A stretch of 54,926 bases of DNA from a virus: positions 1 through 54,926 of the IMG/VR virus record IMGVR_UViG_3300042691_018438; one strand, written 5' to 3'. A program made the translations under genes and the position numbers. Below are positions 13,400 to 54,899 of the stretch, one piece after another. The first letter of the stretch is position 1. The number at the start of each line of letters is the position of its first letter. The notes under the pieces are model-generated. The model was not told the DNA's origin. It searched no databases and saw only the letters and a program-made list of their open reading frames with translations.

Positions 13400-13410
13400 T
13401 ATTTATACAC
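13400..13410 (-). promoter_or_regulatory. GTGTATAAATA element before the 35-residue gene
   Basis: On the minus strand GTGTATAAATATACC lies 10 bases before the ATG at 13392. It contains TATAAATA, identical to the T4-type late promoter -10 consensus, and belongs to the GTGTA(TA)A motif group seen before many genes here. No -35 is seen. Promoter function is inferred. Confidence 0.4.
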
Positions 13411-13430
13411 ACTATAATCTTTTTGGGAAA

Positions 13431-15077
13431 TCATGCCTCACAAGAAGCACATATCATAATTGAACGGGCTAGTTCTTGAGCAGGATTTGAAGAACGCTGA
13501 TAGTAAAGACTCTTGATACCATTCTCCCAAGCAAAAATTAGAAGCTCATTTACTTCTTTTGGTTTGGCAGTAGGAGGAATCATCAAGTTAAGAGACTGTC
13601 CTTGGTCAATATACTTTTGACGTTGTGCCGCTTGAATAATAATCTCCTTCTGAGAGATTTCGCCAAATGTTTTGAATACATCTTTTTCTTGTTGAGTCAG
13701 GAAATCAAGGTGCTGGACACTTCCACCACGAACTAGAATACTCTTCCAAGTCTCATTATTATTCTGCCCTTTATCTACGAGAAGATTTTCGAGATATGGA
13801 TTTTTAAATGTAAATTTACCTTTCGCAAGATCTTTTGTAAAGTAATTGCTATTTAGAGGCTCAATTGATGGAGATACTTGACCAAGGATAAATGAACTTG
13901 AAGTGGTTGGCGCAATTGCAAGTGTAGTGGTATTGCGGCGACCGTAACCTTTCAATAGCTCTGGTTCTCCAAACATTTGTGCAAGTTCTTCTGATGCTTT
14001 ATCGGCACGTTTACGAATTTCGCTCCAGATTTCAATGTTAAGCATTTTAGCTTCCATGCTTTCAAAGCCAATCATTTTTGATTGAAGCAAGGAATGCCAA
14101 CCAAGAATACCAACGCCCAATGCTCGTTGGCGACAAGCGAATTTATTTGGAGCTTCCATATGTTTAACTCCATCAGTTTTGCTAATGAACTCACTCATTA
14201 CAGCATCAAGAAAATAAATCAAAGTCTCAACGGCATCAGTATCTTTAATTTCGTCCCAACGTTCAAGGTTGAGTGAAGATAAGTTACAAACAAAAGACTC
14301 GTCTTCCGAATTACTCAAAAAGATTTCTGAGCAAAGATTAGAATTGTGAATCTTGAGACCTTTATCTTTATAGACTTGTGGGGCTTGATTATTGGCAGTG
14401 TCGGAGAAAAATAGATATGGATATCCTGACTCAAATCTTTTCTTGATTACAAGACCCCAGATCCTGCGTTTCTCTTTGTCGCCATCAATCATGGATTTCA
14501 TCCATTCATCCGAAATACATACTCCAATAGAAAGATCTTGGATCTCATTACCTTCGCCACGAATCTTCAAGAATTCTTCAATATCAGCATGGTCAATTGG
14601 CAAATACGCTGCAAATGAACCACGCCGCACATTACCTTGAGAGACAACACTCATGAGCTTATCGTACATCTCCATGAAATGCACAGATCCAGTTGATTTG
14701 CCACCAGAAGAAATAACTGCTCCACGCCCACGAACATCTCCAAAGTATCCAGATGTTCCACCTCCAGCCTTGGTCATCATTCCAACTTCAGCAAGCTTCT
14801 CAAGAATACCTTCCATTTTATCTGGAATATAAGATCCAAAGCAGGAGATTGGCAACCCACGTTCACGACCAAAGTTTGACCAAATTGGCGAAGACAGAGA
14901 ATAGAATCCTGCGTGAACATAACGCTCAAACTTATCAGCAAACCCCATAATACCGCACAATTTTTCTGCGGTATCAGCGATATCTCTGATTCTTGATTCT
15001 GGTTTCTCTCCCTCTAAAAGATATCCACGCTCTAAAAATTTGCGCGAATCTTCGTTCAACCAATAAATGTCACTCAT
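13431..15077 (-). CDS. nrdA: Class I ribonucleoside-diphosphate reductase, alpha subunit
   Basis: Reduces ribonucleotides to deoxyribonucleotides for phage DNA synthesis. The 548 residues carry the catalytic set: C79 in LPISCFGSY, N247, C249 and E251 in NSNLCSEI, C264 in SFVCNLSSLN, PTTSSS near residue 390, and a C-terminal redox pair C543-x2-C546 (ICASCEA). It is much shorter than typical NrdA (about 750 residues). The first 30 residues run straight into the helical domain, so there is no N-terminal ATP-cone and dATP feedback inhibition is probably absent. Encoded after nrdB in the same transcriptional unit. Start context AATAAGTATGA is shared with hsp20. Family assignment is firm. Confidence 0.94.
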   Translation of the reverse strand: MSDIYWLNEDSRKFLERGYLLEGEKPESRIRDIADTAEKLCGIMGFADKFERYVHAGFYSLSSPIWSNFGRERGLPISCFGSYIPDKMEGILEKLAEVGMMTKAGGGTSGYFGDVRGRGAVISSGGKSTGSVHFMEMYDKLMSVVSQGNVRRGSFAAYLPIDHADIEEFLKIRGEGNEIQDLSIGVCISDEWMKSMIDGDKEKRRIWGLVIKKRFESGYPYLFFSDTANNQAPQVYKDKGLKIHNSNLCSEIFLSNSEDESFVCNLSSLNLERWDEIKDTDAVETLIYFLDAVMSEFISKTDGVKHMEAPNKFACRQRALGVGILGWHSLLQSKMIGFESMEAKMLNIEIWSEIRKRADKASEELAQMFGEPELLKGYGRRNTTTLAIAPTTSSSFILGQVSPSIEPLNSNYFTKDLAKGKFTFKNPYLENLLVDKGQNNNETWKSILVRGGSVQHLDFLTQQEKDVFKTFGEISQKEIIIQAAQRQKYIDQGQSLNLMIPPTAKPKEVNELLIFAWENGIKSLYYQRSSNPAQELARSIMICASCEA

Positions 15078-15124
15078 ACTTATTTTTGCTATTTTGATAA
15101 TAAAGATTTAACTCAATTTTTCAA

Positions 15125-16096
15125 TTAGAAAAGATCATCTTCACTAAATGATTGGTTCTTCTTTGAATATTCAGTTGGTCTGCTGTGGAAGAAGTCTGTC
15201 ATGTTGTTGCCAAGCAGTTCTTCGTCAAACCAAGTTGTAGCAGAAATAAGGTCTTCGTCAACTTCAAATACCTTGGGGAATTGAATTTGAACAAGTGATT
15301 CGTTAATGCGATTTTTAATAAATTCTTTTAGGATATCTGCGCTCAATCCTTGTTCTTGAGTGCCATTAACCATCCAGTCAACAATTTTACTTTCTGATTT
15401 AAAAGCTTCTTGAGCTTCATGCAGAATACGCTGCTCAAGTTCCTCATCAAAAAGTTCTGGGTATTCTTCACGAATAGTGTTGATAATCTTAATACCAACA
15501 AGAGCGTGAATATTTTCTTCGTTCCTTGTGTACTTAACTTGTTGATCAGTGTCCTTCAAGACGTTCTTGAAGCGAGCAAACCAGTTAATAACGTAGAACT
15601 GGGAAAACAGAGAAACGTTCTCAACAAAAAGAGTGAATAGGATTAAAGCATAAAGATATTGCTTCTTTGAATCTTTGTAAAACTTGTGGGTATACTTACG
15701 CAAGTATTTTACACGACCTTGAATCCAGTCGAGCTTCATATTCTCTTCAAAGACATCCTCTAAATCAAGGACTGTAAGAAGTCTCTCATAAGCATTATTA
15801 TGGATCACTTCAACATTAGCCATAACGTAGCCAAGATCTTGCAAACTAGGATGAGGAAGGTTTTCCCCAAGCTTCGCCCAAAATGTTTTTACTGCGACTT
15901 CAATTTGTCCAATAGCAGAGAGAGTGCGAACGATAACCTCGCGTTCTTTATCAGATAATTGAGTCTTAAATTGTTGAACATCGCTTTTAAAGCTGAACTC
16001 TTTATCTGTCCAAAAACCATTGTGCATAGCCTCAGTAAATTGCTCTGCCCAAGGGTAGTGGTTCGGTTTGCGGGAGATTTGTTCTTCGAATATCAT
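15125..16096 (-). CDS. nrdB: Class I ribonucleoside-diphosphate reductase, beta subunit
   Basis: Provides the tyrosyl radical and di-iron centre used by NrdA. The 323-residue ferritin-like helical protein has E96-x2-H99 followed by Y103 in VEVIHNNAYERLL, the same spacing as the E. coli E115, H118, Y122 set. The second half-site is E159 (FVENVSLF) and E194-x2-H197 (EENIHAL). The presence of the tyrosine points to the class Ia/Ib type rather than a tyrosine-free subclass. The acidic C-terminal tail (SFSEDDLF) resembles the tail that docks on NrdA. It has a perfect sigma70-like promoter about 170 bases upstream, a structured leader, and a GTGTAA motif 10 bases before the ATG. Confidence 0.94.
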   Translation of the reverse strand: MIFEEQISRKPNHYPWAEQFTEAMHNGFWTDKEFSFKSDVQQFKTQLSDKEREVIVRTLSAIGQIEVAVKTFWAKLGENLPHPSLQDLGYVMANVEVIHNNAYERLLTVLDLEDVFEENMKLDWIQGRVKYLRKYTHKFYKDSKKQYLYALILFTLFVENVSLFSQFYVINWFARFKNVLKDTDQQVKYTRNEENIHALVGIKIINTIREEYPELFDEELEQRILHEAQEAFKSESKIVDWMVNGTQEQGLSADILKEFIKNRINESLVQIQFPKVFEVDEDLISATTWFDEELLGNNMTDFFHSRPTEYSKKNQSFSEDDLF

Positions 16097-16106
16097 TGCT
16101 GATTAG

Positions 16107-16112
16107 TTACAC
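16107..16112 (-). promoter_or_regulatory. GTGTAA motif before nrdB
   Basis: GTGTAA on the minus strand, 10 bases before the nrdB ATG. One of about ten matching motifs at minus-strand gene starts (see findings). No Shine-Dalgarno sequence is seen here. Confidence 0.4.
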
Positions 16113-16172
16113 TAAGGTTAGTGGATTTTTTGATCTTTTCAAGAAAAATATGTAGAAATTTTTGGCGTAGCC

Positions 16173-16259
16173 ATTATATTAAATACGAACGTAGTGAGAA
16201 TTTAATATAATTCGTAACCTTTAGAAAAAGCGGAACCTTCAGAAGCGGAACGGTTACGA
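16173..16259 (-). promoter_or_regulatory. Structured leader between the RNR promoter and nrdB
   Basis: Two inverted repeats lie in the untranslated leader. ATTATATTAAAT (16173-16184) pairs perfectly with ATTTAATATAAT (16200-16211) around a 15-base loop. TCGTAACC (16212-16219) pairs with GGTTACGA (16252-16259). Inside the second, the 9-base direct repeat AAGCGGAAC occurs at 16228-16236 and 16243-16251. Neither stem is followed by a T run. It may be a cis-regulatory RNA or a protein site; no known riboswitch or NrdR box was recognised. Confidence 0.5.
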
Positions 16260-16266
16260 TATCTTC

Positions 16267-16294
16267 ATTATATGGGAATTTTTTTTAGTGTCAA
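16267..16294 (-). promoter_or_regulatory. Consensus sigma70-type promoter for the nrdB-nrdA unit
   Basis: On the minus strand TTGACA (16289-16294) and TATAAT (16267-16272), both perfect, are separated by 16 bases that include an A8 tract. Transcription would start near 16260 and read through the structured leader into nrdB at 16096. This is the strongest host-type promoter in the window. Confidence 0.8.
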
Positions 16295-16352
16295 GAACAA
16301 AATTTCTAAACTTTTTAGTTGACAAACAGTCTATAACAAATAACTTGAAAAT

Positions 16353-16946
16353 ATGATTTCAGAAGAAGATCCAGAATTAACAAGAATGGTTAAGGAAGAT
16401 CAGAATCAAGAAGCTTTAGTCGAACTAATCTCCAGACACTCTGGGATTTACATCCATATGGTGAAATGTTTTGGCTCAAAAAGCCTTACTCAAGATCAGG
16501 TTAATGATCTGCTTGATGAAAAGGACTACAACATTTATAAAGCTGCGATTGATTTTGACGAATCCAAATCAAAGTTTTCAACATTTCTAGCAAATAAAAC
16601 AAAATACATCTGTTTGACCCAGAAGACAATTAACAAGTCGAAGTCTAACTTCACTTCTTATGATGATATTGATTTTGCTCAAATATCAACAAGTCTTGAG
16701 CCAGATGCAGAATGCTCTCTTAACGAGAGCTACGAGAGAATTATTAATATGATCTTGAAACATCAAGACGAAAGAGTTAAAACTATTTTCTACGAGCGAT
16801 ACTTTTGCGGCGAAAGAGGCAAGTTGAAACCTTGGAAACAGATAGCCCAAAAAGTAAACTTGTCAACGCAGGGATGTATAAATGTCCATAATAAAACACT
16901 AAAAGAATTTAAAAATAAAGTTAAAAATGAAAAAATTAAATTTTGA
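16353..16946 (+). CDS. Sigma factor-like transcription protein
   Basis: A 197-residue protein with the layout of a minimal sigma70-family factor. Residues 20-95 resemble region 2: ELISRHSGIYIHMVKCF, then IYKAAIDFDESKSKFSTFLA, where the FDxxKxxFxTFL pattern is typical. Residues 135-190 resemble region 4: DERVKTIFYERYF, then WKQIAQKVNLSTQGCINVHN, a helix-turn-helix. It probably directs RNA polymerase to phage promoters. It heads a short plus-strand unit, divergent from nrdB, with the GT4 gene overlapping its end by 20 bases. A TTGACA lies at 16319-16324, but its -10 is weak. Confidence 0.75.
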   Translation: MISEEDPELTRMVKEDQNQEALVELISRHSGIYIHMVKCFGSKSLTQDQVNDLLDEKDYNIYKAAIDFDESKSKFSTFLANKTKYICLTQKTINKSKSNFTSYDDIDFAQISTSLEPDAECSLNESYERIINMILKHQDERVKTIFYERYFCGERGKLKPWKQIAQKVNLSTQGCINVHNKTLKEFKNKVKNEKIKF

Positions 16947-18018: not shown

Positions 18019-18022
18019 AATT

Positions 18023-19818: not shown

Positions 19819-21186
19819 TTATTTAATCAGAACTACAGAACCAGTAATTACCCCATTTGGATTCAATGCTAAATCCGAAATTTGACTTTCAACAACTATC
19901 CTATTCGCCTGAGCATAAGCTCTACTTAATGCGAATCCTGTTTGGTTAGGAATATTGTTTGCTGTAAAAAAGACAGTATCATTCAACTCTGCGCCACTGA
20001 AATAACCACTATATACATAACCATTGCCAACTCCAGTGATTCTAAACCCACCACTATGCATGAACTTATTGATAGCAGTGCCTCCTTGCAATTGACCAAT
20101 TGTTAATGTAGAATTGAAACTTAACGCTCCATTGACAGATAATGATTGAGAGCTTATGGTATCAGCATATCCAGTAGAAAAATTTCCATAATCTGCATAA
20201 ACTTGTGAAAATGTTCCTGTTCCGCCAACATTTATATCATTCTGTACATTAAGTTCTAAAACTCCTGTTAAAGAAGATACATAATTTTGGTTAGATACCC
20301 AAGATTCAGTTGCAATAGTACTGCCAGTTAAATTGCCAGTTACTAAAATATTTAAATTATTGGTTTGTACAGAATCAACGCTAAATTGAGTACCTGTTAT
20401 TAATCCTCCACTAATTGTAGAATTAACGATAAGATTGCCATTTACTGTTGTATTTCCAGTTTGAAAAACATTAGAATCAATACTTGTAACATTGCCAGTA
20501 ATTACCGCATTGCCTAAGATATTTAATGCTCCGCTAGTTGTAAGAACATCATTGATAGTTACAACTTGACTAGCAATTGCATCAGATAAATAAGAAATGC
20601 CATTAGCATTTATCTCCCCATTAAAAACTCCAGAATATGGCGAATCGACAACTATATTTGAATTGAATACAGTTGGCCCTCCCTTGAATGTTGTACCACT
20701 TGCGAAATCAATCAGTAATGAATTACTTGTAGTATTAGAATGTGCTGTTTTAACATCTGCTAAAATTACTGCTCCAGTTATATTAGCTCCAAACGAACAA
20801 CCCGATCCAGCCAAGATTGTGTTCCAAGCGGACCCACTCGTAATACTTGAATTGATAGCATTTAAAATTACATTATTAGATTGAGCCAAGGAAGTTATAG
20901 AATTTCCAGATCCAGCTAAAATTGTGTTAAATGAGCCACTAGCAGAGTTATTTGAGCCTCCAAATACAATACTTCCAGAAGATGCGTCATAAGAATGCGA
21001 GGAATCTGGCGTAAAAAAGATGCCACTATTAATTCGTAAAGACCCATCAATATTAAAATTTCCGCTCAAATTACGACTTAAATTTACATCTACTCCAGTT
21101 GTAAGGTCATTGAAATTCAAATCACCACTAGGACTGAAAAAAATTGGAAGTTGAATTTGTTTTGCTTGAATTTTTGTATAGGCCAT
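19819..21186 (-). CDS. Tail fibre/adhesin-like protein (paralogue 2)
   Basis: A 455-residue partner of the fibre gene downstream. It shares the N-terminal IQAKQIQLPIFFS and LTTGVDVNLSRNLSGNFNID, and the autotransporter-head-like repeats (IVFGGSNNSASGSFNTILAG). The middle is a run of G-N-V/I-T-G repeats. The C-terminal 90 residues diverge. Tandem duplication followed by tip divergence is likely, giving two receptor-binding specificities or a hetero-fibre. It starts in the 38-base divergent gap shared with the plus-strand ssDNA-binding-like gene, where GTGTAATCC stands about 25 bases before its ATG. Confidence 0.7.
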   Translation of the reverse strand: MAYTKIQAKQIQLPIFFSPSGDLNFNDLTTGVDVNLSRNLSGNFNIDGSLRINSGIFFTPDSSHSYDASSGSIVFGGSNNSASGSFNTILAGSGNSITSLAQSNNVILNAINSSITSGSAWNTILAGSGCSFGANITGAVILADVKTAHSNTTSNSLLIDFASGTTFKGGPTVFNSNIVVDSPYSGVFNGEINANGISYLSDAIASQVVTINDVLTTSGALNILGNAVITGNVTSIDSNVFQTGNTTVNGNLIVNSTISGGLITGTQFSVDSVQTNNLNILVTGNLTGSTIATESWVSNQNYVSSLTGVLELNVQNDINVGGTGTFSQVYADYGNFSTGYADTISSQSLSVNGALSFNSTLTIGQLQGGTAINKFMHSGGFRITGVGNGYVYSGYFSGAELNDTVFFTANNIPNQTGFALSRAYAQANRIVVESQISDLALNPNGVITGSVVLIK

Positions 21187-21206: not shown

Positions 21207-21217
21207 AAGGATTACAC
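21207..21217. promoter_or_regulatory. Shared divergent gap: GTGTAA for the fibre gene, AAGG for the SSB-like gene
   Basis: The 38-base gap 21187-21224 has TTACAC (21212-21217), which reads GTGTAA on the minus strand about 25 bases ahead of the fibre gene ATG, and AAGG (21207-21210) on the plus strand 14 bases before the SSB-like ATG, rather far for a ribosome-binding site. Both genes must be controlled from this short region or from readthrough. Confidence 0.35.
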
Positions 21218-23514: not shown

Positions 23515-24623
23515 GTCATTTAGCTGAAGTATATGCCAAAGATCTTGGAGTAAAAATTGGTAAACCATTTTTTAAGCCTCATTTTTTTCCAATCATAGAT
23601 ACTAACTACATAACAATTCACCATGATAATAAATCTCAATCAAGAGAGTATGATTATTGGGATGAGGTAATTAAAATTGTTAAATATAAAAAAAATATTA
23701 AATTTATTCAAATTGGATCTGGCAAGGAACCAAAACTTGGCAATGCTGATAAATTTATTGCTACAAATTCAATTAAACAATGTGCATACATAATTCAAAA
23801 CTCATTAATGCACGTTGGAATAGATAGTTTGCCAGCACATATTGCATCATTATTAGATAAGCCAATAGTCGCTCTATATTCAAGTTGTTATGCAAATAAT
23901 AGCAAGCCACTCTGGGGCAATCAAAGCAAACATATCTTGATCGAATCTTTTGGAGATAATAAGCCATCTTTTTCGCATCAAGAACTAAATAAAACTATAA
24001 ATAGCATAAAACCAGAAAAAATTGCTAATTCAATTTTAAATCTTTTGGGTGAAGATGCTATTGATTTCCATACTCTTTATATTGGCAAAAGTTACAAGCA
24101 CTCGTCATTAGATGTTGTGCCTGATCAACCATATGATATTGTGGCGCATAATCTCTCTATCAGAATGGATTTATATTTTAACGAACAAAATATTATTCCA
24201 ATTGTTAATAAAAATCAATGTATTGTTGTAACAGACAGAGCAATTACGAAAGATATACTTGCACATAAAAATATTAAGCAGGTCAACTATATCAATGACT
24301 CCTTCGATGAAGACTTTGTATCAACCTTGAAATCTTTTGGTAAAAATTTTATTTTACTATGCACTTCAAAAGATAATTTAAATTTGCAGAGGGCCAAATT
24401 CTTTGATGAGAAAATTATTTATTACAACGAATCAGAAAAAATTGCAGAAAATAAAAACGAAATTACATTAGATAAATTTCAATATTCAAGTTTTAAAAGG
24501 GTTTTAAAAAATGCAAAAATTTTCAATAGTTATTTCGACGCAAATGGATCAGAAAATCTTGATGATTTTTACCTTGACTTAGATCATATGTTTGTCTATA
24601 CTGTAAATCATGAGCAAAAATAA
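23511..24623 (+). CDS. GT9-like C-terminal half plus extra domain
   Basis: A 370-residue protein whose first about 180 residues resemble the donor-binding half of GT9 heptosyltransferases. YITIHHDNKSQSREYDYWDE and IKFIQIGSGKEPKLG precede LMHVGIDSLPAHIASLLDKP, which is the DSxxxHxAxxxxxP motif, followed by IVALYSSCY. The missing first half of the GT9 fold sits at the end of the upstream protein, and the genes overlap as ATGA (23511-23514). The remaining about 190 residues (from HTLYIGKSYKHSSLDVVPDQ) are unrecognised. The pair probably acts as one complex; an ancestral split by frameshift is plausible. Confidence 0.6.
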   Translation: MSHLAEVYAKDLGVKIGKPFFKPHFFPIIDTNYITIHHDNKSQSREYDYWDEVIKIVKYKKNIKFIQIGSGKEPKLGNADKFIATNSIKQCAYIIQNSLMHVGIDSLPAHIASLLDKPIVALYSSCYANNSKPLWGNQSKHILIESFGDNKPSFSHQELNKTINSIKPEKIANSILNLLGEDAIDFHTLYIGKSYKHSSLDVVPDQPYDIVAHNLSIRMDLYFNEQNIIPIVNKNQCIVVTDRAITKDILAHKNIKQVNYINDSFDEDFVSTLKSFGKNFILLCTSKDNLNLQRAKFFDEKIIYYNESEKIAENKNEITLDKFQYSSFKRVLKNAKIFNSYFDANGSENLDDFYLDLDHMFVYTVNHEQK

Positions 24624-25377
24624 AATTTATGGCCCAGATATTTATAAACGCAATGATGATGGTCTATTTGATAATGTAGATTATGCATTTAATGAAGATG
24701 GGTCGATTGATTGGCGATCAATGATCAAGCCAGAATTCCTCTACCCAAATAAAGATTGGTTTACTAGTCGTGGCAAAGAAGTGCCAACTTCTCCAGAAGG
24801 CTTGAGTGACAAGCAGCTTTTGATTATGCTTGGTGGCATTAAAGAACTTGCTCGTCTTCGTGGATTCGAATCAGTTTCGTTTGAAACAAATAATGAACAA
24901 GATGGTTATGTAACTGCTAAGTGCATCATTCGTTGGATGGCGAATTATTGCGATCCATATGGATGCGTATATGAAGATGTAGCTAATGCAACTCTAGCTA
25001 ATACCGATTCATTTTGTGCCAAGTTCCTTGAAACAATTGCTTGTAACCGTGCATTTGTACGTTGCGTTCGGAACTTTCTCAATATTCATATCGTTGGCGC
25101 TGATGAGATTGATAAATCAAAAGGAGCAAATAATGCCACCTCTGTAGAGTATGATTCAGCAGAATCCACTAATGTCACTCTGACGCCCTCTGCGATGCTT
25201 GAGAAGGCCGTTAAGGAAAAAACTGGATCAGACTCCTTCGATCAATTCAAGACGCTGCTACGGGAGTTCTGGAAGCAAGAACAGTATCGAAATGAAGACG
25301 CAAAAGAATGGTCATCATTTAATGATATTCCAGCAAAAGAATCACGCAAACTTCTAGTTCTAGTTAAGAAACTATAA
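24610..25377 (+). CDS. Possible Rad52-like single-strand annealing protein
   Basis: A 255-residue protein. The central part has beta strands (FESVSFETNNEQDGYVTAKC), then a long helix FCAKFLETIACNRAFVRCVR followed by NFLNIHIVGADEI. The helix resembles the aa-x-x-RAx-RAxRxxL segment of phage Rad52-type annealing proteins. The C-terminal 60 residues are helical and charged. It overlaps the glycosyltransferase gene by 14 bases and follows the SSB-like gene in the same strand block. Together with RecA and RecB-like nuclease genes, a recombination role is plausible. The identification is tentative and could be wrong. Confidence 0.35.
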   Translation: MSKNKIYGPDIYKRNDDGLFDNVDYAFNEDGSIDWRSMIKPEFLYPNKDWFTSRGKEVPTSPEGLSDKQLLIMLGGIKELARLRGFESVSFETNNEQDGYVTAKCIIRWMANYCDPYGCVYEDVANATLANTDSFCAKFLETIACNRAFVRCVRNFLNIHIVGADEIDKSKGANNATSVEYDSAESTNVTLTPSAMLEKAVKEKTGSDSFDQFKTLLREFWKQEQYRNEDAKEWSSFNDIPAKESRKLLVLVKKL

Positions 25378-39464: not shown

Positions 39465-39470
39465 TTACAC
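39465..39470 (-). promoter_or_regulatory. GTGTAA motif after the tube-gene terminator
   Basis: GTGTAATATACTTCAATG on the minus strand: GTGTAA is 9 bases before the ATG at 39455 and directly behind the T run of the terminator at 39471-39506. It is well placed to restart transcription. Confidence 0.45.
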
Positions 39471-39506
39471 AAAAAATAAGCCCCATCTTTCGATGAGGCT
39501 TATTTT
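39471..39506 (-). terminator. Intrinsic terminator after the tail tube gene
   Basis: On the minus strand AATAAGCC-T-CATC, loop GAAA, GATG-G-GGCTTATT forms a long stem with one mismatch, followed by TTTTTT. It ends the tail tube transcript, which fits the need for high expression of the tube. Confidence 0.85.
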
Positions 39507-40743: not shown

Positions 40744-40749
40744 TTACAC
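40744..40749 (-). promoter_or_regulatory. GTGTAA motif before the tail tube gene
   Basis: GTGTAATAAG on the minus strand in the 34-base gap before the tube gene, 24 bases ahead of the ATG. Part of the recurrent motif set; a promoter for this highly expressed gene is plausible. Confidence 0.4.
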
Positions 40750-43213: not shown

Positions 43214-43645
43214 TTAGTCTGTGAATAATCTTACAACTGAATCATAGTTTGGGGAATTTTTATCAATGATTGGTTTCGATGGCGATGGTACAGTTACGTT
43301 ATGTTTTTGAGCGTACATATCAAAAGCCTCTGAAAGAGCTTTACGCATTTGATTTTGAGACCTTGGAGGATTGATGCCTACTCGATTACATAACGAAGTC
43401 ATATCAGCAATAGACATAGACGAAAGATTTTCTGCAAAGATATTTTTATTTAATGTCCTAAATGGATTCATATCTTTAATCCCCAAAAGATCTTCTAGTT
43501 CTCTAGCTTTTTTAATCTGTTCTGCTTTTTCATCACGGGTTTTGCCATCAGTGACATCAAATTCTTCTAGAGATTTCTTTTGTTTTTCTAGGTCAGTTGT
43601 TTTTTTAGATGCTTTCATAGTTGCAATTTTTATGGATTTCACCAT
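43214..43645 (-). CDS. Small helical protein with SAP-like segment
   Basis: A 143-residue protein, basic and helical at the N-terminus (KKTTDLEKQKKSLEEFDVTD), with a SAP-like helix-extension-helix in the middle (LSSMSIADMTSLCNRVGINP, then QMRKALSEAFDMYAQ). It follows the capsid gene terminator and precedes the neck genes. SAP modules bind DNA, so a head-interior or DNA-end role is possible. Start may be the first ATG or MKASKK, nine codons on. TTGTATAA lies 16 bases before the ATG. Confidence 0.5.
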   Translation of the reverse strand: MVKSIKIATMKASKKTTDLEKQKKSLEEFDVTDGKTRDEKAEQIKKARELEDLLGIKDMNPFRTLNKNIFAENLSSMSIADMTSLCNRVGINPPRSQNQMRKALSEAFDMYAQKHNVTVPSPSKPIIDKNSPNYDSVVRLFTD

Positions 43646-43661
43646 AACTTATTATAAATGA

Positions 43662-43669
43662 TTATACAA
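43662..43669 (-). promoter_or_regulatory. TTGTATAA element between the capsid terminator and next gene
   Basis: On the minus strand TTGTATAATC lies directly after the terminator T run and 16 bases before the ATG at 43645. It contains TATAAT and resembles the GTGTATAA motif. Likely reinitiates transcription. Confidence 0.4.
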
Positions 43670-43676
43670 AAAAATC

Positions 43677-43708
43677 AAAAAAAAGAGCCGCCCCCTTGCG
43701 AGGGCGAC
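43677..43708 (-). terminator. Intrinsic terminator after the major capsid gene
   Basis: On the minus strand GTCGCCC, loop TCGCAAGG, GGGCGGC gives a 7-pair stem (one T-G pair) followed by CTC and T8. It limits transcription after the capsid gene. Confidence 0.85.
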
Positions 43709-43732
43709 CCAATTGAGTTGTTTTGTATCGTA

Positions 43733-44878
43733 TTAGGCGACGATGCCAACGAGGGCGCGGTCATCAATACATACACGGCCTTCTTCGATCTTACCGTAGT
43801 AACCAATCTTGTTCTGACGAACTGAGAATTGGTCATCGACAAGAACGGTGAGTGCGCCAGTGGAACCTTCGTCAAGAACAACTGGACGAAGAAGAACGTC
43901 ACGGGAACGGTCAACACCGATGAGGATTTCATCATCAGCAGTTACCCAAGTACTGCCACCACCACCCGCGACAGTAGCGCTTTCAGCAGCAACAACTGCG
44001 CCGAAGATACTATTGAAACGTTGGTTAACGCCCATTTCAAGGATTTCAATGATATTGATACCATAGAAGCTTGGAAGACCAGCGGCACTATAGAGTTGCT
44101 CACGAAGAGTTTCTGGAGCAGCAAGACCATTATCATTTCCATTGGTTCCACCAGTTGCGGAGCCTTTGGTGTTGATTGGGTTATAAGCCATTGAGCGAAG
44201 TTGCTGAACCATTTCTGGTGAAACAATAAGATCTGTTACACCAATCTTTGTGCCACCAACAGGAGTACCCTTAACAAATGAGCTATTGATACGCTTGCCA
44301 AGTGTGAGGAGTCTATTCAAGTCATCAAGTAGCAAACGGTTTTCGGTATTTGAGCCAATGATATGGCTACCAGCAGCACCACTTGTACCACTATTACCCT
44401 TGACTAGAGCGGTAGCAAGCACATTGAATGCTGTACGCTCTTGCTTGAGCATGATTTCTTGGGCCATGCGGGTAAATGTCTTGGATACAACATCAAGACG
44501 GGACTTACGAGCATACTTACGGTCGAAAGCGAGGGCGCTATCGAGGGTGTAGGTGCTGAACTTAAGTTCGTTGTGTGCTGGGAAGACTTGGCTATATGGA
44601 AGGCCACCTGCAACTTGTTGTGAGTAGACTTGGATATAATCTTCGTCTGTGATATCGTGGAAGAGATCCAGAGGAAGAGATGGATTATCATCAGCTTGAT
44701 AGGTGAGAGTAGTGAAGAGATTACCAACAGTGACAGCATTGTTGATGACTTCATCTACTACTGGACCTAAAAGCTCTGCAACAGCAGCTTGTGCCTCATA
44801 AGCCTCCTCACGATTATTTGAACCCATAGCACGAACTAGGGCCAATTGATCTTCAGTTCTTTTGATTGTGATTTTCAT
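43733..44878 (-). CDS. Major capsid protein
   Basis: A 381-residue protein, the likely shell subunit. It has a long N-terminal helix (REEAYEAQAAVAELLGPVVD) and a spine-helix-like region (LDVVSKTFTRMAQEIMLKQE). DLIVSPEMVQQLRSM is typical of HK97-fold P-domain strands and helices, GINIIEILEMGVNQRFNSIF follows, and the C-terminus is VLVDDQFSVRQNKIGYYGKI. It sits after protease/scaffold and decoration-like genes and has its own terminator. Codon use appears more GC-rich than neighbours, in line with high expression. Confidence 0.82.
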   Translation of the reverse strand: MKITIKRTEDQLALVRAMGSNNREEAYEAQAAVAELLGPVVDEVINNAVTVGNLFTTLTYQADDNPSLPLDLFHDITDEDYIQVYSQQVAGGLPYSQVFPAHNELKFSTYTLDSALAFDRKYARKSRLDVVSKTFTRMAQEIMLKQERTAFNVLATALVKGNSGTSGAAGSHIIGSNTENRLLLDDLNRLLTLGKRINSSFVKGTPVGGTKIGVTDLIVSPEMVQQLRSMAYNPINTKGSATGGTNGNDNGLAAPETLREQLYSAAGLPSFYGINIIEILEMGVNQRFNSIFGAVVAAESATVAGGGGSTWVTADDEILIGVDRSRDVLLRPVVLDEGSTGALTVLVDDQFSVRQNKIGYYGKIEEGRVCIDDRALVGIVA

Positions 44879-45507: not shown

Positions 45508-47031
45508 TTATTTTGTTACTTCAACAGAGAAGTTCTTCTTTAATTTTTCGATTAAAGAAACTTTTTGGGAAGCTTCGGCATTGTTGTTAGGAATGAGAGA
45601 AGCTTCAGCTACTTCTTCGACCTCAAGTTCTTCTTCAGTTTCTTCCTCTGGATCTTGTTTTGAAGCAGTGGATTCTTGAAGCTTGGAGGCGATTGCTTCT
45701 TCGATGCGAGACTTAATCTCTTCTTCTTTAGCAGCAATTGCTTCTTTTGACTTGTGGGCGAAAAGAACGGAAAGTTTGCCTTTAAAGGTTTCGAAGGCTT
45801 CGTCAGAAGCTTCTACTGACTTTAGTTCAGCTACAACGTACTCAAGTTCTGCTTGCGAGAACTCGTAAGTAGAGTCGAGGAAATTCATTCTGGAATTGAA
45901 TAATTCAACAGCAGCTTGCGCTTCGACTTCGGCTTTAATAGAGACTAACTCAGACTGAATAGCTTCGAAAGAAGCTTTTAATTCAGCAAGGTCAGCTTCT
46001 GCCTTTGTACGAGCTTCTGCTTCAAGTTGAACCTTAGATTTCCATGTTTCGGAATGCTCTGCAAGAGCATCACGCATAATCTCGCCAATAGAACTGGCTT
46101 GATCGTCCTTCTTGACTACAGAGGCAACGCTTTCGGCTACCTTGGTCATTAGTTGTTCGAATTGTTCTGTATCCATATCAAATATATCGAATTTATCGGT
46201 TTTTACATTATTTTCCGAGTTTAGGGAAATTTTTTGTGAATTTTTAATATCTTGATTATCTTCTTCAGCATTAGAATTATCAATATTATTTTCCATTAAA
46301 TATACGCCTTTGACTCTAGCGGCTGGATTATATGTCAAAGCAGCACCTAATGGATAAGTTTCTCCATAGATCAAACGATGCACTGGGTTGCCTTCTTTAT
46401 CCTTACCCTTGCCCCCAAAACCCTTGACATATTGCTTCTTCTCTGCTTCGACTTCGCCTTCTGCAACTGTGCATTGATCTAATCTATCAGATCCATAAAC
46501 GACCTTGTAGTTTTTGAATGCTAGTTCCCAGCTAGTAGAAATACTTTGATATTCTTCACCATCTTCTTCAGCAGCATTTTCAATAGCTTGAGCAAGTTCT
46601 GGAAATATATTTCTATAAATTAAACCTGCGGCATTAATGTAAAAAGGTTCTGTCTTGCCAGCATATGAATTGACATCATAATCTTTAAAATCGAATTCTG
46701 ATTCAGAAAAAGATGCGTTGATCATGTGGCCGACAATCTTGTGTTTCTTATGTTCAATATTAATTGGCTTATTGATGAAACGCTTAACAGCGGCGATAGC
46801 TGTATCAGTATCAATGCCATCGCCATTCTTGTTAAACTCATTTACAATAGCGAGATTAAACACGACAGGAAGCACATCAATATTTGCAGATGGATCGAAT
46901 CCCTCTGGCATTAATGATTTAGCTGCTTCTGAAATAGAACCTTCAGATACGCCGAACTTATCAAAATCTTTTGGTTGAAGCGCCTTGATCTTACAAGCAA
47001 AGCTTGTTACTTCAAAATCTTTAATATCCAT
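45508..47031 (-). CDS. Prohead protease fused to scaffold protein
   Basis: A 507-residue two-part protein. The N-terminal about 240 residues look like a capsid maturation serine protease: a conserved histidine, H94, in PINIEHKKHKIVGHM and a serine at S163/S165 in EYQSISTSWEL. The strand order recalls HK97/T4-type prohead proteases. From about residue 285 the chain is acidic, helical and coiled-coil-like (EQFEQLMTKVAESVASVVKK, then DLAELKASFEAIQSELVSIK), typical of scaffold. An internal ATG at 46296 with AAAGG 10 bases upstream could yield scaffold alone. A good Shine-Dalgarno (AAGGAG) and GTGTAA precede the ATG. Confidence 0.78.
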   Translation of the reverse strand: MDIKDFEVTSFACKIKALQPKDFDKFGVSEGSISEAAKSLMPEGFDPSANIDVLPVVFNLAIVNEFNKNGDGIDTDTAIAAVKRFINKPINIEHKKHKIVGHMINASFSESEFDFKDYDVNSYAGKTEPFYINAAGLIYRNIFPELAQAIENAAEEDGEEYQSISTSWELAFKNYKVVYGSDRLDQCTVAEGEVEAEKKQYVKGFGGKGKDKEGNPVHRLIYGETYPLGAALTYNPAARVKGVYLMENNIDNSNAEEDNQDIKNSQKISLNSENNVKTDKFDIFDMDTEQFEQLMTKVAESVASVVKKDDQASSIGEIMRDALAEHSETWKSKVQLEAEARTKAEADLAELKASFEAIQSELVSIKAEVEAQAAVELFNSRMNFLDSTYEFSQAELEYVVAELKSVEASDEAFETFKGKLSVLFAHKSKEAIAAKEEEIKSRIEEAIASKLQESTASKQDPEEETEEELEVEEVAEASLIPNNNAEASQKVSLIEKLKKNFSVEVTK

Positions 47032-47037: not shown

Positions 47038-47046
47038 TCCTTACAC
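47038..47046 (-). promoter_or_regulatory. Overlapping GTGTAA motif and Shine-Dalgarno before the protease gene
   Basis: The minus strand reads GTGTAAGGAGACAATATG. GTGTAA (47041-47046) runs directly into AAGGAG, which is five bases before the ATG at 47031. It is the clearest ribosome-binding site of the virion module. Confidence 0.6.
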
Positions 47047-49014
47047 TTAAATTTTGGTTGAGTGATATAAAATTGCAGCAGATAGATCATCTAATTGATG
47101 CTTTGCTCCCATCTCTAGAACATTGTCACTGATATTAAGCTCAGAAATGGCTTCTATATCCTCTACAATCGACGCTAACGAGCTATCCCACTCATTTGCC
47201 TCTCTAGATACTACAATCGACTCACAAGCCTTAGAAACGAGTTCCTTGCGATTCTCATCAAGTTCGTCTAAACCGTATTTGAGCGCAAACTCGCGGAATG
47301 CGCGAAGCTCAAACTCATTGATCATCTTTGTTGCATCAACTATATGCTTTTTGGAAAAGGTTGAGTTGGAAACGCCCATTGGTCTTCCACCAGAAGGAGC
47401 AATTGCTGTTGGTGGTTTGGGGGCAGCTTCTGGAGTGTCTCCCATTTCCTCCGCTTGATAAAGATTGATGCTATTAACGAGAGGCATATAATAACCTTCG
47501 CCACGCTGTTCTTTGAATTTGTTCTGAGCTTCTTGAAGTTCTTCTGCTTTTGGGAAGACACCAGTGTGAACAACATTCATGCCTTGCTCTGGAGTTAGAA
47601 CGCCAAGTTCCATCATGCGAGTAGCAAGCTTAGTCATATCAGAATTATCAAGAGTATCTGTCTTAACTAGTTTCGCTTCTGGCCAAGCTCTCATGCCAGC
47701 GGCTTTACAGATTCTGCGAATTTCTGGCTGAAGAAAGTCTCTGATAAACAGTTGACGAGATTCTTCTAGGCGTTGAATAAAGATTTTCATCTTGAGTTGT
47801 CCATCTGCATACTTATTGTCGCCAATAAGAACATTTTGGAGACCTTCTTGAATATCTCTGTTTAAAATTTCATATTTTTCTGGACCAACTACCTTGCGAA
47901 GATCTGGGATAATGAAATCAGCCTTTGTTGTATAGTCAGAAACTAATACGCGACCAACGCTTTGGTTTTTAAAGATGCCTTGCATCGCCTGTAAAGCTTT
48001 TTGGTTGATGCCACCCTTATCTGGTTCTGCACCCATGGTAACAAGAAGAACCACATTCTCGATAGAACGGGAAATTGCTTGGTCAATCTTTTTAAGCTCA
48101 AGCTTTTTATTGATGTCGTCAAGAACAGTGAAACCATAGGGGATTGCCAATGGTTCGTAGTCTTGCTTTTTGGCAAATACTACATGTAGCTGATCTGAAG
48201 CAAGCTTAATATACAAACGCTCAGATGATGTAACATTATTAGTCTTGATTCTCAATCTTACATCTTCTGGTAAAGAATTAAACATTTCTTGCTCATGCTC
48301 TGTCTTAGGATCTCTAAGGCGAGCAATCTCATATGGAGTAAGAACTTTAAAGTATTGATAATCGCTAAAAGAAATAGATCCCTTTGTGGCAACATCAGTT
48401 GGATTGATGACCATATATTTGATAGGAATCGCGGCATTCTTCTTTGTTGCACCGTATGTCTCCAAAATTTGATTAGTATCCTGTGCTTTAAGGCGACCAT
48501 CAATGCGATATAAGAAAACATTACCTGAGCGGTAATATTCTCTAAAGAATTGTGCCTTTAGATCATGAATTTTAATGCGTTTAAACCATGCGTTAATAAA
48601 ATTGCGAGCTTTTTCAGTACCACCTTCTAAATAAACATCAGAATCAGCAAAGTCCGAAAGCATATCAATTGTGCTACGAAATGCTGGGATATTGAAATAA
48701 GCCTTCTGGCAAAGTTGAATAGCATCCTTTGCATCTACAGAGTCACGCGAATAATCAAAAGGAAGCAAACCATCATCAATATTCCTAAAACGATCTTTGA
48801 CAACATTCTTAGATGCGCCATTAGTTCTTAGGGAAGTATTATTTGTAGATTGTAATCTAGAAGCAACACTTTCATATAAAGATTGACCAACTAGTTCTGG
48901 TTGAAATGTATCTGCCCGTGATTGTTGAGCAAATAGTTCACTTAAATTATTATTCGAACTTTCCTTATTAAACTTACCCCAATATTCTGATCGTTTTGTA
49001 TACTTCCTTGCCAT
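47047..49014 (-). CDS. Portal protein
   Basis: A 655-residue protein forming the dodecameric DNA-entry ring. After a disordered N-terminus it shows portal-like features: LCQKAYFNIPAFRSTIDMLS, then KRIKIHDLKAQFFREYYRSG and VFLYRIDGRLKAQD (the crown-to-stem type helix and hairpin). The segment IDQAISRSIENVVLLVTMGA and a long helical C-terminal part follow. Located between terminase and the protease/scaffold gene, the standard order. GTGTAA lies 11 bases before its ATG. Confidence 0.8.
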   Translation of the reverse strand: MARKYTKRSEYWGKFNKESSNNNLSELFAQQSRADTFQPELVGQSLYESVASRLQSTNNTSLRTNGASKNVVKDRFRNIDDGLLPFDYSRDSVDAKDAIQLCQKAYFNIPAFRSTIDMLSDFADSDVYLEGGTEKARNFINAWFKRIKIHDLKAQFFREYYRSGNVFLYRIDGRLKAQDTNQILETYGATKKNAAIPIKYMVINPTDVATKGSISFSDYQYFKVLTPYEIARLRDPKTEHEQEMFNSLPEDVRLRIKTNNVTSSERLYIKLASDQLHVVFAKKQDYEPLAIPYGFTVLDDINKKLELKKIDQAISRSIENVVLLVTMGAEPDKGGINQKALQAMQGIFKNQSVGRVLVSDYTTKADFIIPDLRKVVGPEKYEILNRDIQEGLQNVLIGDNKYADGQLKMKIFIQRLEESRQLFIRDFLQPEIRRICKAAGMRAWPEAKLVKTDTLDNSDMTKLATRMMELGVLTPEQGMNVVHTGVFPKAEELQEAQNKFKEQRGEGYYMPLVNSINLYQAEEMGDTPEAAPKPPTAIAPSGGRPMGVSNSTFSKKHIVDATKMINEFELRAFREFALKYGLDELDENRKELVSKACESIVVSREANEWDSSLASIVEDIEAISELNISDNVLEMGAKHQLDDLSAAILYHSTKI

Positions 49015-49025: not shown

Positions 49026-49031
49026 TTACAC
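49026..49031 (-). promoter_or_regulatory. GTGTAA motif before the portal gene
   Basis: GTGTAACAATTAATACC precedes the ATG at 49014 on the minus strand, with 11 bases between GTGTAA and ATG. The gap also contains CAAAGT and ACTTTG inverted arms just upstream. Confidence 0.4.
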
Positions 49032-51869: not shown

Positions 51870-52927
51870 AACAACTCTTTCTTAGAAATACCAAGGATTC
51901 TTGCCTTGTAGTCATCCATGGTTTCCAACCTATCTGCTTCTTCTTCAATTAACCTGTTCTGAAGTTCTGCCATTCTGATCATGCGGTCGCGCTCTTCACG
52001 TTCTTGGAACGCTTCAACCAAAGCAAAGATAGATCCGTTCTCTTCGCCCTTGGCTTTGAGGCGGTTAGTTCTACTGCCGTTCAAATCTTTAGTCAGCGAT
52101 TCAATACGCTTTTCGCATTGGTTAAGCTCTTCGCTAGTAGCTTTGATAATCTCCGTAAGACGCATCGTAATGTCTCTTTCGTTATCTTGGTCATCGAGTA
52201 GTGCGTTAAGCTTGTCAATGCGCTGCTGAATGTGTTTCTGGCGAACGTAGTTGGTACACACGGTGACATATAGATTCAATTCGTCATTAGTGAGGTCTGG
52301 CTTGTCCCAAATAGCACGAACAAACTCGCTTTCAAACAAGTCTCTATCGGCAAGGGTAGAATATTGGTTAATGAAGTGGTTGAAACGAGGACTACGCAGA
52401 TAGATCATCAATTGCTCCATCATCTTTTTATGCTTAGTCTGAATCGTTAGTTCATCAAATGTTGTGCCGCAAAATGTATTGACTTTCGAAATAACCCGTG
52501 ATAAAGCTCTTGGAGCAGCCCACTTTTCTTTTGTGACAATCTCATTGTCATCAACAATTTCGGGTCTATAAACTTTTAAGAAATCCACCACCGTCCTATG
52601 CTTCATGCTAAGACTAGCTACACTGCGATCTTTGAAAGCAAGTCGAGCAATCTCTAGGGCGTTCATTCCAAATTCAATGTTATCACTCATCAAGAACTCC
52701 TTCTGTTCTTTGGTGAGGTCAACAACTTCTACTTTTGGGACAAGAGATGTATTATATTCTTTATTTTGATTAGCTAGGAATGTTCTTACAGCACGACCCT
52801 CTTTTGAGCGGCCATCAATTTCTTCGTTTTGGAAAACGGTACGGGTGATGTGCATCAAATCGGGGTTTTTCTTAAACTCTTTTAGGATTTGCTGCTTTTG
52901 TTCATCTGTTAGTTCATAATGGTTCAT
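51866..52927 (-). CDS. Putative terminase small subunit or packaging-associated protein
   Basis: A 353-residue, highly charged helical protein upstream of the ERCC4 nuclease and terL. Two repeated segments look alike: YELTDEQKQQILKEFKKNPD...RTVF, and VVDLTKEQKEFLMSDNIEFG...ARLAF. Both could be helix-turn-helix-like DNA-recognition units, as in large phage small terminases. The C-terminal 150 residues are coiled-coil-like (KHIQQRIDKLNALLDDQDNE, then EELNQCEKRIESLTKDL). Identification is by position and architecture. Overlaps neighbours by 4 bases each. Confidence 0.5.
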   Translation of the reverse strand: MNHYELTDEQKQQILKEFKKNPDLMHITRTVFQNEEIDGRSKEGRAVRTFLANQNKEYNTSLVPKVEVVDLTKEQKEFLMSDNIEFGMNALEIARLAFKDRSVASLSMKHRTVVDFLKVYRPEIVDDNEIVTKEKWAAPRALSRVISKVNTFCGTTFDELTIQTKHKKMMEQLMIYLRSPRFNHFINQYSTLADRDLFESEFVRAIWDKPDLTNDELNLYVTVCTNYVRQKHIQQRIDKLNALLDDQDNERDITMRLTEIIKATSEELNQCEKRIESLTKDLNGSRTNRLKAKGEENGSIFALVEAFQEREERDRMIRMAELQNRLIEEEADRLETMDDYKARILGISKKELL

Positions 52928-53601
52928 AGTAGGTCATCCTCTCTGATTATTTTTTGGGCTATAAGATAAAACTTCTTCTTGAGGTTATTGATTTGCTTAT
53001 AGCGGGGCGTTTTTCTTTTGCTAGTATCTTTCTTAAAGCCGAATTGCTTGGCGACTTCTGTTTCAGATGCATGGTTAATATATAGCATGGTATAAATTAA
53101 CTTGTGCTTATCATTTAATTGTTCGATCACTAATTTGTGTATTTTATTGATCTTGTCATCATATTCGAAATAATCATCTAGCAACGAATCATGAACAAAG
53201 ATACTTGTGTCTAATGATAGAGGTAGTTTAAGATTATATGCGGACTCTTTCTTCTTCTGCCAGTTAGCATACATTGAACATGTAGTATCGTGTTCGCCGC
53301 TTTTGGTGATTTCGCATTCTGTGCCGCCCAAGTAATGTGGGCATCTTAAGCAAGGTTTAGCAAAGTTCGTATAATTGTTTCTAACTAGATTTTTAATCTG
53401 ATTAGAAATCAATATACTTGCCCAAGGCCCAAAAGCCCGTTGTTGATCCCACAAATGCCACTTGTTATAAATATGCAATCTTATAATCTGGCAGACATCA
53501 TCATAGTCTAACCAAGACAAAGCATTGAGTTGCCATTTGGCGCGATATTTATTTAAGATTTCTTCAATTTGGGGGACAAGATCTTCGTATTTCTTATCCA
53601 T
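52924..53601 (-). CDS. Sigma factor-like protein with internal cysteine cluster
   Basis: A 225-residue protein resembling sigma70 regions 2 and 4. Region 2-like: LSWLDYDDVCQIIRLHIYNK, then FGPWASILISNQIKNLVRNN. Region 4-like: QLNDKHKLIYTMLYINHASE, then TEVAKQFGFKK. Between them lies a four-cysteine cluster (C84-x2-C87-x8-C96-x11-C108; CLRCPHY, GGTECEI, DTTCSMY), probably a zinc or Fe-S site, which is unusual for sigma factors. It lies in the packaging operon, so a late-transcription role comparable to T4 gp55 is plausible. Confidence 0.65.
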   Translation of the reverse strand: MDKKYEDLVPQIEEILNKYRAKWQLNALSWLDYDDVCQIIRLHIYNKWHLWDQQRAFGPWASILISNQIKNLVRNNYTNFAKPCLRCPHYLGGTECEITKSGEHDTTCSMYANWQKKKESAYNLKLPLSLDTSIFVHDSLLDDYFEYDDKINKIHKLVIEQLNDKHKLIYTMLYINHASETEVAKQFGFKKDTSKRKTPRYKQINNLKKKFYLIAQKIIREDDLL

Positions 53602-53986
53602 CTATATCAATTGGTTTTGAAGAAGCGCATTCTGCTTGAGTAAGTCTAATCAAGTCTTGACCATTTGGAAGGTTGGGAGATGGACGCCTAAATCCATCAA
53701 TATTTTCGGCATCCTGTGGACTCGCAGATTTCCATAGGTCAGTGAGGTTTGTTTTGCTGGTGTTTGCTTCAGCGATAATATCTCTTCGTAGACGACGAAC
53801 ATCAATCGAGCGCACACTTGGCTCTTCGTATTCTTCTTCTTCGATTTCGATTTCGACACTAGCCTTTATTGGAGCTTTTGGTGCAAGAGCGCCCATAACA
53901 GCACTTCCACAACTCGCGCAAAACTTTGGCTTCGTGACCTCGTATACATTCTTAAATCCGCAGGATACACAAAAAACTTTGTTCAT
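53594..53986 (-). CDS. Zinc-ribbon protein, function unknown
   Basis: A 130-residue protein with an N-terminal zinc ribbon (FCVSCGFKN, then KFCASCGSAV; C-x2-C at about 6-9 and 23-26), an acidic middle (EIEIEEEEYEEPS) and a C-terminal SVRSIDVRRLRRDII stretch. It sits between phoH and the sigma-like gene (8-base overlap) in the same transcriptional unit. It may act as a transcription or replication accessory factor; no family recognised. Confidence 0.7.
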   Translation of the reverse strand: MNKVFCVSCGFKNVYEVTKPKFCASCGSAVMGALAPKAPIKASVEIEIEEEEYEEPSVRSIDVRRLRRDIIAEANTSKTNLTDLWKSASPQDAENIDGFRRPSPNLPNGQDLIRLTQAECASSKPIDIDG

Positions 53987-53994
53987 GGTAAATT

Positions 53995-54675
53995 CTAGGT
54001 GATATTTTCGATTTTTTCTACTAAATAAGTAATAATTTTATCTCTTATAATATCTTCCCTTCCGAACCTTATACTATAAATACCATGTTTGGCGCTCTGT
54101 GGATCAGAGAACAGATCTGCCATCTTATCAAAGCCACTGTTCCTAATATCACTTTGCAATCCATCGCCGCAAATAAATAGCTTACTGCCACGACCAATTC
54201 GGGTCACAATAGTAGTTAGTTCTTTGATGCTCATATTTTGGGCCTCATCTACAATCACAACCTTGTCGCGCCATGTACAACCACGAAGAAAGTTAATAGG
54301 TTCTGCCGCCAATACCCCCTTTGTTTTAAGCTGATCCTTTTCGGGTTTATTCAATAGCTCATCAACCTTATCTAAAAGCGGGGCCATATAAGGACCAAAC
54401 TTGTCCTCAATGTCTCCTTTCAAGAAACCCAACCCTCTCTCAGCACTCTCAACTACGCTTCTCAAATAGAGAATGCCTAAGTCTCTGTTCTGGTTATATA
54501 AATCAAGGGCAGTATAGACTGATAAAAATGTTTTGGCCGTTCCTGCGGGACCACCGATAAAGACGATTCGGGTATTCGGGGCTGAAAGTATATTATAGAA
54601 TTCTTTTTGTTTTGGGGTTAATTCAATATGACCTAGTAGGAGGCTGTTGTCTTTTGGTTTGTTTGTTTTGGCCAT
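53995..54675 (-). CDS. phoH: PhoH-like ATPase
   Basis: A 226-residue P-loop ATPase of the PhoH family, common in phages of nutrient-poor waters. Walker A is GGPAGTAKTF at 41-50 and Walker B VVIVDEAQN near 138-146. ELTTIVTRIGRGSKLFICGD follows, then the SIRFGREDIIRD region, all typical of PhoH and the related helicase-like fold. The precise role in phages is not known; RNA handling or a link to phosphate stress has been proposed for the family. It heads the minus-strand packaging unit, with GTGTATAA in its upstream region. Confidence 0.9.
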   Translation of the reverse strand: MAKTNKPKDNSLLLGHIELTPKQKEFYNILSAPNTRIVFIGGPAGTAKTFLSVYTALDLYNQNRDLGILYLRSVVESAERGLGFLKGDIEDKFGPYMAPLLDKVDELLNKPEKDQLKTKGVLAAEPINFLRGCTWRDKVVIVDEAQNMSIKELTTIVTRIGRGSKLFICGDGLQSDIRNSGFDKMADLFSDPQSAKHGIYSIRFGREDIIRDKIITYLVEKIENIT

Positions 54676-54899
54676 CTTAGATAAAGGCTGTTTATATATT
54701 ATACACGTTTTATGTTTTTCGTAACCCTCGCGTTTTAAAAAACGGTTTGGGATATGGGATTTTGATAGTGTTCACCACCCCCCCGCTCTTTTGCCGTCAA
54801 GCGAAATCTGCAATCGTTTGAAAAAACCCCTCCCCTTTTTTTTTCTGTAATAATGATTTTTTTTCTTGCGGTTTCACGGTCTGCTGCTATCTTTCTCTC
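54676..54899. other. Divergent intergenic region with homopolymer tracts
   Basis: This 224-base stretch separates phoH (minus) from a possible plus-strand gene. It contains C7 at about 54778, two runs of T (nine and eight) near 54836 and 54857, and CCCCTCCCC, giving strand-biased pyrimidine-rich sequence on the plus strand. It also has an A+T-rich part with the phoH promoter candidate. It may hold replication or packaging signals; nothing specific was recognised. Confidence 0.5.
54699..54706 (-). promoter_or_regulatory. GTGTATAA element upstream of phoH
   Basis: The minus strand reads CGTGTATAATATATAAACAG, containing a perfect TATAAT -10-like hexamer, about 23 bases before the phoH ATG. No good -35 is seen. 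It belongs to the GTGTA(TA)A motif set and is the likely promoter of the packaging unit. Confidence 0.5.

Follow-up and report, generated by a model that had tools for sequence, protein, structure and literature searches.

A candidate −10-only late promoter element, GTGTA[A/T], in an AT-rich phage lineage

What does a short word recurring ahead of phage genes mark? The question is raised by IMG/VR virus record IMGVR_UViG_3300042691_018438, whose 54,926 nucleotides (nt) are here called the window, and in which the hexamer GTGTAA stands shortly upstream of many minus-strand genes. An initial annotation had listed ten such sites and proposed that they are −10 elements, giving leaderless messages under a phage sigma-like factor. 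We found that in this phage and its relatives the motif heads roughly twelve genes, which serve the virion or nucleotide metabolism. GTGTA[A/T] is very probably a −10-only late promoter of the lineage, which a phage sigma factor would read after host-type promoters have acted on the early genes.

Placement and conservation of the motif

All ten listed sites are present in the window, at the positions given for them. As had been reported, the motif lies 9–11 nt from the ATG at six of them (9, 9, 9, 10, 10 and 11 nt); the remaining distances are 16, 23, 24 and 25 nt. Across the window, the bare words occur at about their expected frequencies (TTACAC, 22 versus 18.8 expected; TTATACAM, 7 versus 5.7), and the signal therefore lies in placement relative to gene starts. 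Eight of the 17 minus-strand copies of GTGTAA are located 5–30 nt 5′ of a sense gene start, against an expectation of 0.38 (binomial p = 1.2e-9), so that the hexamer is concentrated upstream of starts rather than equally frequent in coding sequence of the same strand; none of the five antisense copies falls in such a zone. Moreover, seven of the 17 minus-strand copies are noncoding, compared with none of the five plus-strand copies, in a window with 1,685 bases (3%) of noncoding DNA. Nine GTGTA[A/T] sites fall in the upstream zones; shifting the gene map circularly 2,000 times yielded at most five, and in the window alone GTGTAA ranks first among all 6-mers in these zones. Since upstream regions consist mostly of coding sequence, an expectation–maximization (MEME-like) search on all upstream 45-mers caught coding patterns; k-mer enrichment against a coding background was used instead.

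A portal protein query recovered 21 loci from IMG/VR (46–84% identity). Seven longer contigs (≤85 kb), collinear with the window, were compared with it, and genes were called in all eight contigs. Upstream of the 384 genes, with expectations taken from the coding sense strand, GTGTAA was the most enriched 6-mer (56 versus 2.1 expected; 5 antisense); among 8-mers, GTGTAATA came first (23 versus 0.22 expected). Because the contigs share ancestry, a gene-by-gene comparison in which protein alignments fixed the starts is better evidence than these pooled counts. Within each motif-headed ortholog set, the distance from motif to start is nearly fixed. The motif occurs in 12 of 31 minus-strand late or nrd ortholog groups and in 0 of 21 others (14 from the replication block and 7 on the plus strand; Fisher p = 7e-4), the late-type class being assigned from gene content. 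A strand-specific, promoter-like element at late-type genes, as first proposed, is thus borne out. Genes packed directly behind another gene are mostly without the motif, which fits a promoter, unlike a ribosome-binding element. The motif was also found at the more distant loci L017, L018 and L019 and on the nrdB-bearing phage-like contig L047, in one case directly after a terminator.

The consensus from 39 non-redundant sites is GTGTA[A/T]nA, immediately preceded by an A/T-rich stretch. No −35 element was detected by column or by k-mer in 39 and 33 non-redundant sites, apart from one stray column at −28.

The sites of the window, all on the minus strand, differ in their distance from the start. 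At the portal gene (47047–49014; PHROG 2739, E = 4e-7), GTGTAA at 49026–49031 lies 11 nt 5′ of the start; it was found at 21 of 21 loci, down to 46% protein identity, with a gap of 11 nt that becomes 8, 9 or 14 nt at some loci. A gap of 9 nt separates GTGTAA at 37345–37350 from the tape measure gene (32983–37335; PHROG 4211, E = 5e-36), and it is exactly 9 nt in 6 of 6 contigs. The same distance is seen at 39465–39470 ahead of gene 39012–39455 (8 of 8 loci, gap 9–10 nt) and at 47041–47046 ahead of gene 45508–47031 (16 of 17 loci). The latter gene, initially read as a protease, has no family match and no match among 50,697 phage records. GTGTAA at 16107–16112 stands 10 nt 5′ of nrdB (15125–16096; 5 of 5 contigs, gap 10–11 nt), and its six bases are invariant in a leader whose surrounding noncoding DNA has diverged. 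A 35-amino-acid acidic microprotein (13285–13392, minus strand; MTEP...DETIAFILDRIDQAMLEQDD) follows GTGTATAA at 13403–13410; it was found in five contigs (the window, G1, G3, G5 and G7), each time under its own late motif, which is GTGTAT.

Other sites lie farther from the start. GTGTAA at 21212–21217 is 25 nt 5′ of a fibre-like gene (19819–21186; 5 of 5 contigs, gap 25 nt), and GTGTAA at 40744–40749 is 24 nt 5′ of gene 39529–40719 (7 of 9 loci, gap 22–25 nt), for which no family match supports its initial reading as tail tube. GTGTATAA at 54699–54706 is 23 nt 5′ of phoH (53995–54675; PhoH by Pfam; 8 of 8 loci, gap 13 or 23–24 nt), which heads the run of genes containing sigma-like gene B. 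The variant GTATAA at 43662–43667 is 16 nt 5′ of gene 43214–43645 (9 of 10 loci, gap 16 nt), and most relatives have GTGTAA in its place. An eleventh site, missing from the initial list, is GTGTAA at 31458–31463, located 24 nt 5′ of gene 29823–31433 and within the 3′ end of the preceding gene; it is kept in 6 of 6 contigs with a nearly constant gap (21–24 nt). A GTATAA 5′ of gene 43733–44878, which is probably the major capsid gene, was dropped as a motif, being conserved in only 1 of 16 cases.

Two motifs abut terminators. An intrinsic-terminator-like hairpin with a T-run, GCCTCATC-GAAA-GATGGGGC, was read from the sequence at 39471–39499 (minus strand). It went unflagged in the terminator scan, and a hairpin with T-run lies immediately upstream of this motif at 8 of 8 loci. 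An intrinsic terminator with an 11-pair stem and a T8 tail lies at 43685–43710 (minus strand), upstream of the 43662 motif. In nearly all orthologs of both sites the motif begins right behind the T-run, an arrangement difficult to account for unless a new transcript starts at that point. At another gene, 11961–12728, the T-run of a strong terminator (12734–12763, minus strand) abuts the ATG and leaves no space for a separate promoter.

Recognition of the element and the sigma-like proteins

We infer from sequence that transcription initiates at the motif, and likewise the start position, the sigma that reads the motif and the timing. In the proposed mechanism, host-type sigma-70 promoters (TTGAC-N16–18-TAnnnT) would switch on the early genes, including sigma-like gene A and the recombination and replication run. 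A phage sigma, most likely A first with B then added from the phoH run, would redirect host RNA polymerase to GTGTAW before the virion, phoH, nrd and microprotein units. In about half of these units, where the element is 8–11 nt from the start codon, the messages would be leaderless or have a leader of 0–5 nt, and in the remaining units the leader would be roughly 5–20 nt; neither class would rely on a Shine-Dalgarno sequence.

The element had initially been written as TGTAAT/TATAAT. Its promoter-like character stands, but the conserved core is GTGTA[A/T] and not a TATAAT hexamer. A phage sigma would be unnecessary if a host sigma, either sigma-70 or an alternative factor, read the element as a −10 box. 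TGTAAT is one base from TATAAT, the GTGTATAA variants at 13403 and 54699 contain TATAA-type runs, and the same genomes have host-type TTGACA promoters. However, G, T, G, T and A are nearly invariant over the 39 sites. Sigma-70 needs A at the second position of the −10 hexamer; if TGTAAT is that hexamer, it has G there, which suits a phage sigma more than a host one. The element also has no −35 partner, and the clear host-type promoters use TTGAC with TAnnnT, mostly at other genes. Recognition by a host sigma is, in our judgement, improbable.

The closeness to start codons, with six window sites at 9–11 nt, and the lack of Shine-Dalgarno enrichment would also suit a translation signal, with ribosomes binding independently of Shine-Dalgarno pairing, or a site of mRNA processing. 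Such a signal, however, would not be expected to have gaps that vary from 6 to 26 nt, to be missing from most late genes and from all replication and plus-strand groups, to adjoin terminators, behind which transcription has to start anew, or, as at gene 29823, to sit within the preceding coding sequence with its gap nearly unchanged; we consider this explanation very unlikely. We give still less credence to a role apart from initiation, whether as the operator of a phage regulator or as a signal in replication or packaging. Such a role could be served by a short noncoding word conserved across many loci, but this one is non-palindromic, confined to unit heads, spaced to the start and strictly oriented relative to the gene, with no antisense copy in the upstream zones of the window.

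The promoter reading with a phage sigma draws on two conserved sigma-like proteins that the phage had initially been said to encode. Protein B (225 amino acids; 52924–53601, minus strand), the third gene of the phoH run, scores above curated sigma-70 cut-offs: it matches Pfam Sigma70_r2 at 26.7 bits (cut-off 24), and its G7 ortholog matches TIGR02937 (sigma70-ECF superfamily) at 46.6 bits (cut-off 42.9). Its modelled C-terminal part resembles sigma region 4, and a fold search returned mostly sigma factors, none with E below 0.1. Protein A (197 amino acids; 16353–16946, plus strand), encoded on the strand opposite to the late motifs and behind a host-type promoter, is the weaker match. It has a PHROG 36 match (E = 2.6e-6) and no Pfam sigma match. 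Both its TIGR02937 match (G7 ortholog, residues 21–190, E = 7e-6) and its RpoD_Cterm match (window copy, E = 5e-4) are below cut-off. Protein A is conserved in G1, G3, G5 and G7 at 54–79%. Searches of PDB sequences gave nothing informative. Our guess is that A would start the late programme and B would be made under it; either could read the motif.

Several points weigh against the proposed late promoter and its recognition by a phage sigma. Sharing ancestry, the eight contigs provide orthologs that are non-independent samples. The structure models of the sigma-like proteins are weak (mean predicted local distance difference test scores of 41 and 55), too weak for subfamily assignment. The host-type promoter of gene A is clear in the window and looser in G3, G5 and G7. 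Finally, both proteins seem to keep a region-4-like C terminus, and a −35 preference might therefore be expected, whereas phi32_gp36, the sigma factor of phage phiEco32 (Kuravirus), is used with −35-less promoters and lacks region 4 (PMC8948821).

Host-type promoters, leader length and Shine-Dalgarno use

A second promoter class, TTGAC-N16–18-TAnnnT, ends 5–8 nt 5′ of starts and was missed by the initial annotation. Over seven contigs, 26 matches to TTG...N16–18...TANN[AC]T end 5–8 nt 5′ of a start and none at 0–4 nt, and the reversed pattern gave none at 5–8 nt. Matches in loose sigma-70 consensus scans were not over-represented overall (58 versus 61 expected, and 82 versus 78); what informs is their position relative to starts alone. 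Sites of this class include TTGACA-16-TAACTT at 16319–16346 (plus strand), 6 nt 5′ of sigma-like gene A; TTGACA-16-TAGGAT at 8703–8730 (minus strand), 6 nt 5′ of gene 8244–8696, the head of the uvsX/helicase/primase run; TTGACA-17-TAAGAT at 2900–2928 (minus strand), 6 nt 5′ of gene 2192–2893, which encodes part of a DNA polymerase; and TTGACT-17-TATACT at 24574–24602 (plus strand), 7 nt 5′ of gene 24610–25377. The last two are kept in G1, G3 and G7. In left-arm genes of G7 and G2, TATACT lies exactly 6 nt 5′ of the ATG.

Leader lengths in the late class were estimated by aligning GTGTAW on the ATGTAt of the phiEco32 element and assuming the same start distance. If that distance holds, gaps of 8–11 nt would give leaders of 0–5 nt, and gaps of 13–26 nt leaders of about 5–20 nt; the fibre, 39529, phoH, 43214 and 29823 genes would then have short leaders, roughly 5–20 nt. 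The geometry thus suits leaderless messages at the 8–11 nt sites and not at those 13–26 nt from the start, and it is strictest in the host-type class rather than in the GTGTAW class. The leaderless messages proposed initially are supported in part: by this estimate the late class would be near-leaderless for about half its units, not all. The claim that most of these starts lack a Shine-Dalgarno sequence was upheld: among 11 motif-bearing genes counted in the window, 1 has a Shine-Dalgarno-like 4-mer, and across the contigs 1 of 51 motif genes has one. Such 4-mers are not enriched overall (25 of 241 starts, against 14, 17 and 26 in control windows). Tentatively, and with slightly less than even confidence, these data suggest a lineage of uncultivated AT-rich phages in which early and late classes are both leaderless or near-leaderless and Shine-Dalgarno initiation is essentially unused. 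Were this so, the early start codon would lie at about +1, and at genes such as portal, tape measure and nrdB the transcripts from GTGTAW would start 0–5 nt from the AUG.

Host-type sites also accompany late motifs. A TTGATT-N16-TATAAT site overlaps the 43662 motif; in most relatives, the region 43646–43732 (minus strand) has a host-type TTGATT-N16/17-TATNAT-like site 5 nt 5′ of the ATG of gene 43214. The overlap of this site with a GTGTAA late element suggests dual early and late control of the gene. Upstream of the nrd genes, a promoter matching the consensus at 12 of 12 positions, TTGACA-16-TATAAT, lies at 16267–16294 (minus strand), with 10–12 of 12 matches in all five contigs compared. 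The region 16097–16294 (minus strand), between this promoter and nrdB, contains a conserved hairpin, with two covarying pairs in the stem and a loop of about ACTCWCTWCGTTCGT, followed by GGCTTCGCC; repeated GGATACGTATCC-like palindromes occur there in G3, G5 and G7. The hairpin region has no Rfam match; it may represent a small RNA, or else a regulatory leader of the nrd genes.

Comparison with known promoters and lineage of the contigs

The T4 late promoter consensus is TATAAATA. Matches to it were tried as an alternative late signal and rejected: there are 6 on the minus strand and 8 on the plus strand of the window, 2 of them noncoding, and they are not concentrated at gene heads. T4 late promoters are read by gp55 with gp33 and the sliding clamp gp45 (PMC2988020). 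The class described here shares with them the lack of −35 conservation, and a sigma-family phage protein is encoded here as well; unlike in T4, no gp33 or clamp-dependent activation was identified here, and the genes for head and packaging do not closely match those of T4.

The middle and late promoters of phiEco32 have the consensus tAATGTAtA and a start 6–8 bp downstream (PMC8948821). As in phiEco32, there is a single highly conserved element with a TGTA core and no −35, placed at middle or late gene heads, together with host-type early promoters. phiEco32 has a phage sigma factor; the phage here encodes sigma-like proteins, whose recognition of GTGTAW is only predicted. Only the TGTA core is common to tAATGTAtA and the consensus found here, and this phage differs further in having two sigma-like proteins, seemingly with a region-4-like part, and many elements 8–11 nt from the start codon with Shine-Dalgarno sequences unused. 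The late promoters of Kayvirus (Twort-like) phages, TGTTATATTA, consist of a −10 box only, by inference from RNA sequencing, with the start about 6 bp after the box (PMC7698491). A −10-only late class and host sigma-70-type early promoters are common to both, whereas the consensus and the phage group are different. In bacterial leaderless genes, TANNNT about 12 nt 5′ of the start has been used for prediction (PMC3160421). The host-type promoters here resemble these, with TAnnnT ending 5–8 nt 5′ of the start codon, but they belong to a phage lineage whose late class has GTGTAW, not TANNNT.

The motif shows two features of the −10-only late promoter class, a single conserved element at late-type unit heads and no −35. 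Late promoters of this kind, read by phage sigma factors, are already known (T4, phiEco32 and, as inferred from RNA sequencing, Kayvirus), and the consensus here, which would join this small set, differs from each; GTGTAW is described in none of the phage promoter papers that our search retrieved. The unusual part is the combination of near-leaderless late placement with leaderless-type early promoters. Near-leaderless promoters of structural genes would be relevant to the question of how phages adapt the initiation of translation to hosts independent of Shine-Dalgarno pairing. More generally, sequence by itself yields a predicted regulatory map, covering early and late units and terminator–promoter junctions, for a lineage with scarcely any members among sequenced phages.

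The labels of metagenome-assembled genomes (Flavobacteriaceae, Lokiarchaeota) were not used to assign a host. Of the eight genome contigs that matched the sugar-epimerase gene, four (L043, L045, L047 and L050) carry additional genes from this phage or related ones. Three of them (L043, L045 and L050) come from the same phage lineage or a related one and were binned into Flavobacteriaceae and Lokiarchaeota genomes; L050 shares up to 99.7% protein identity with contig G3.

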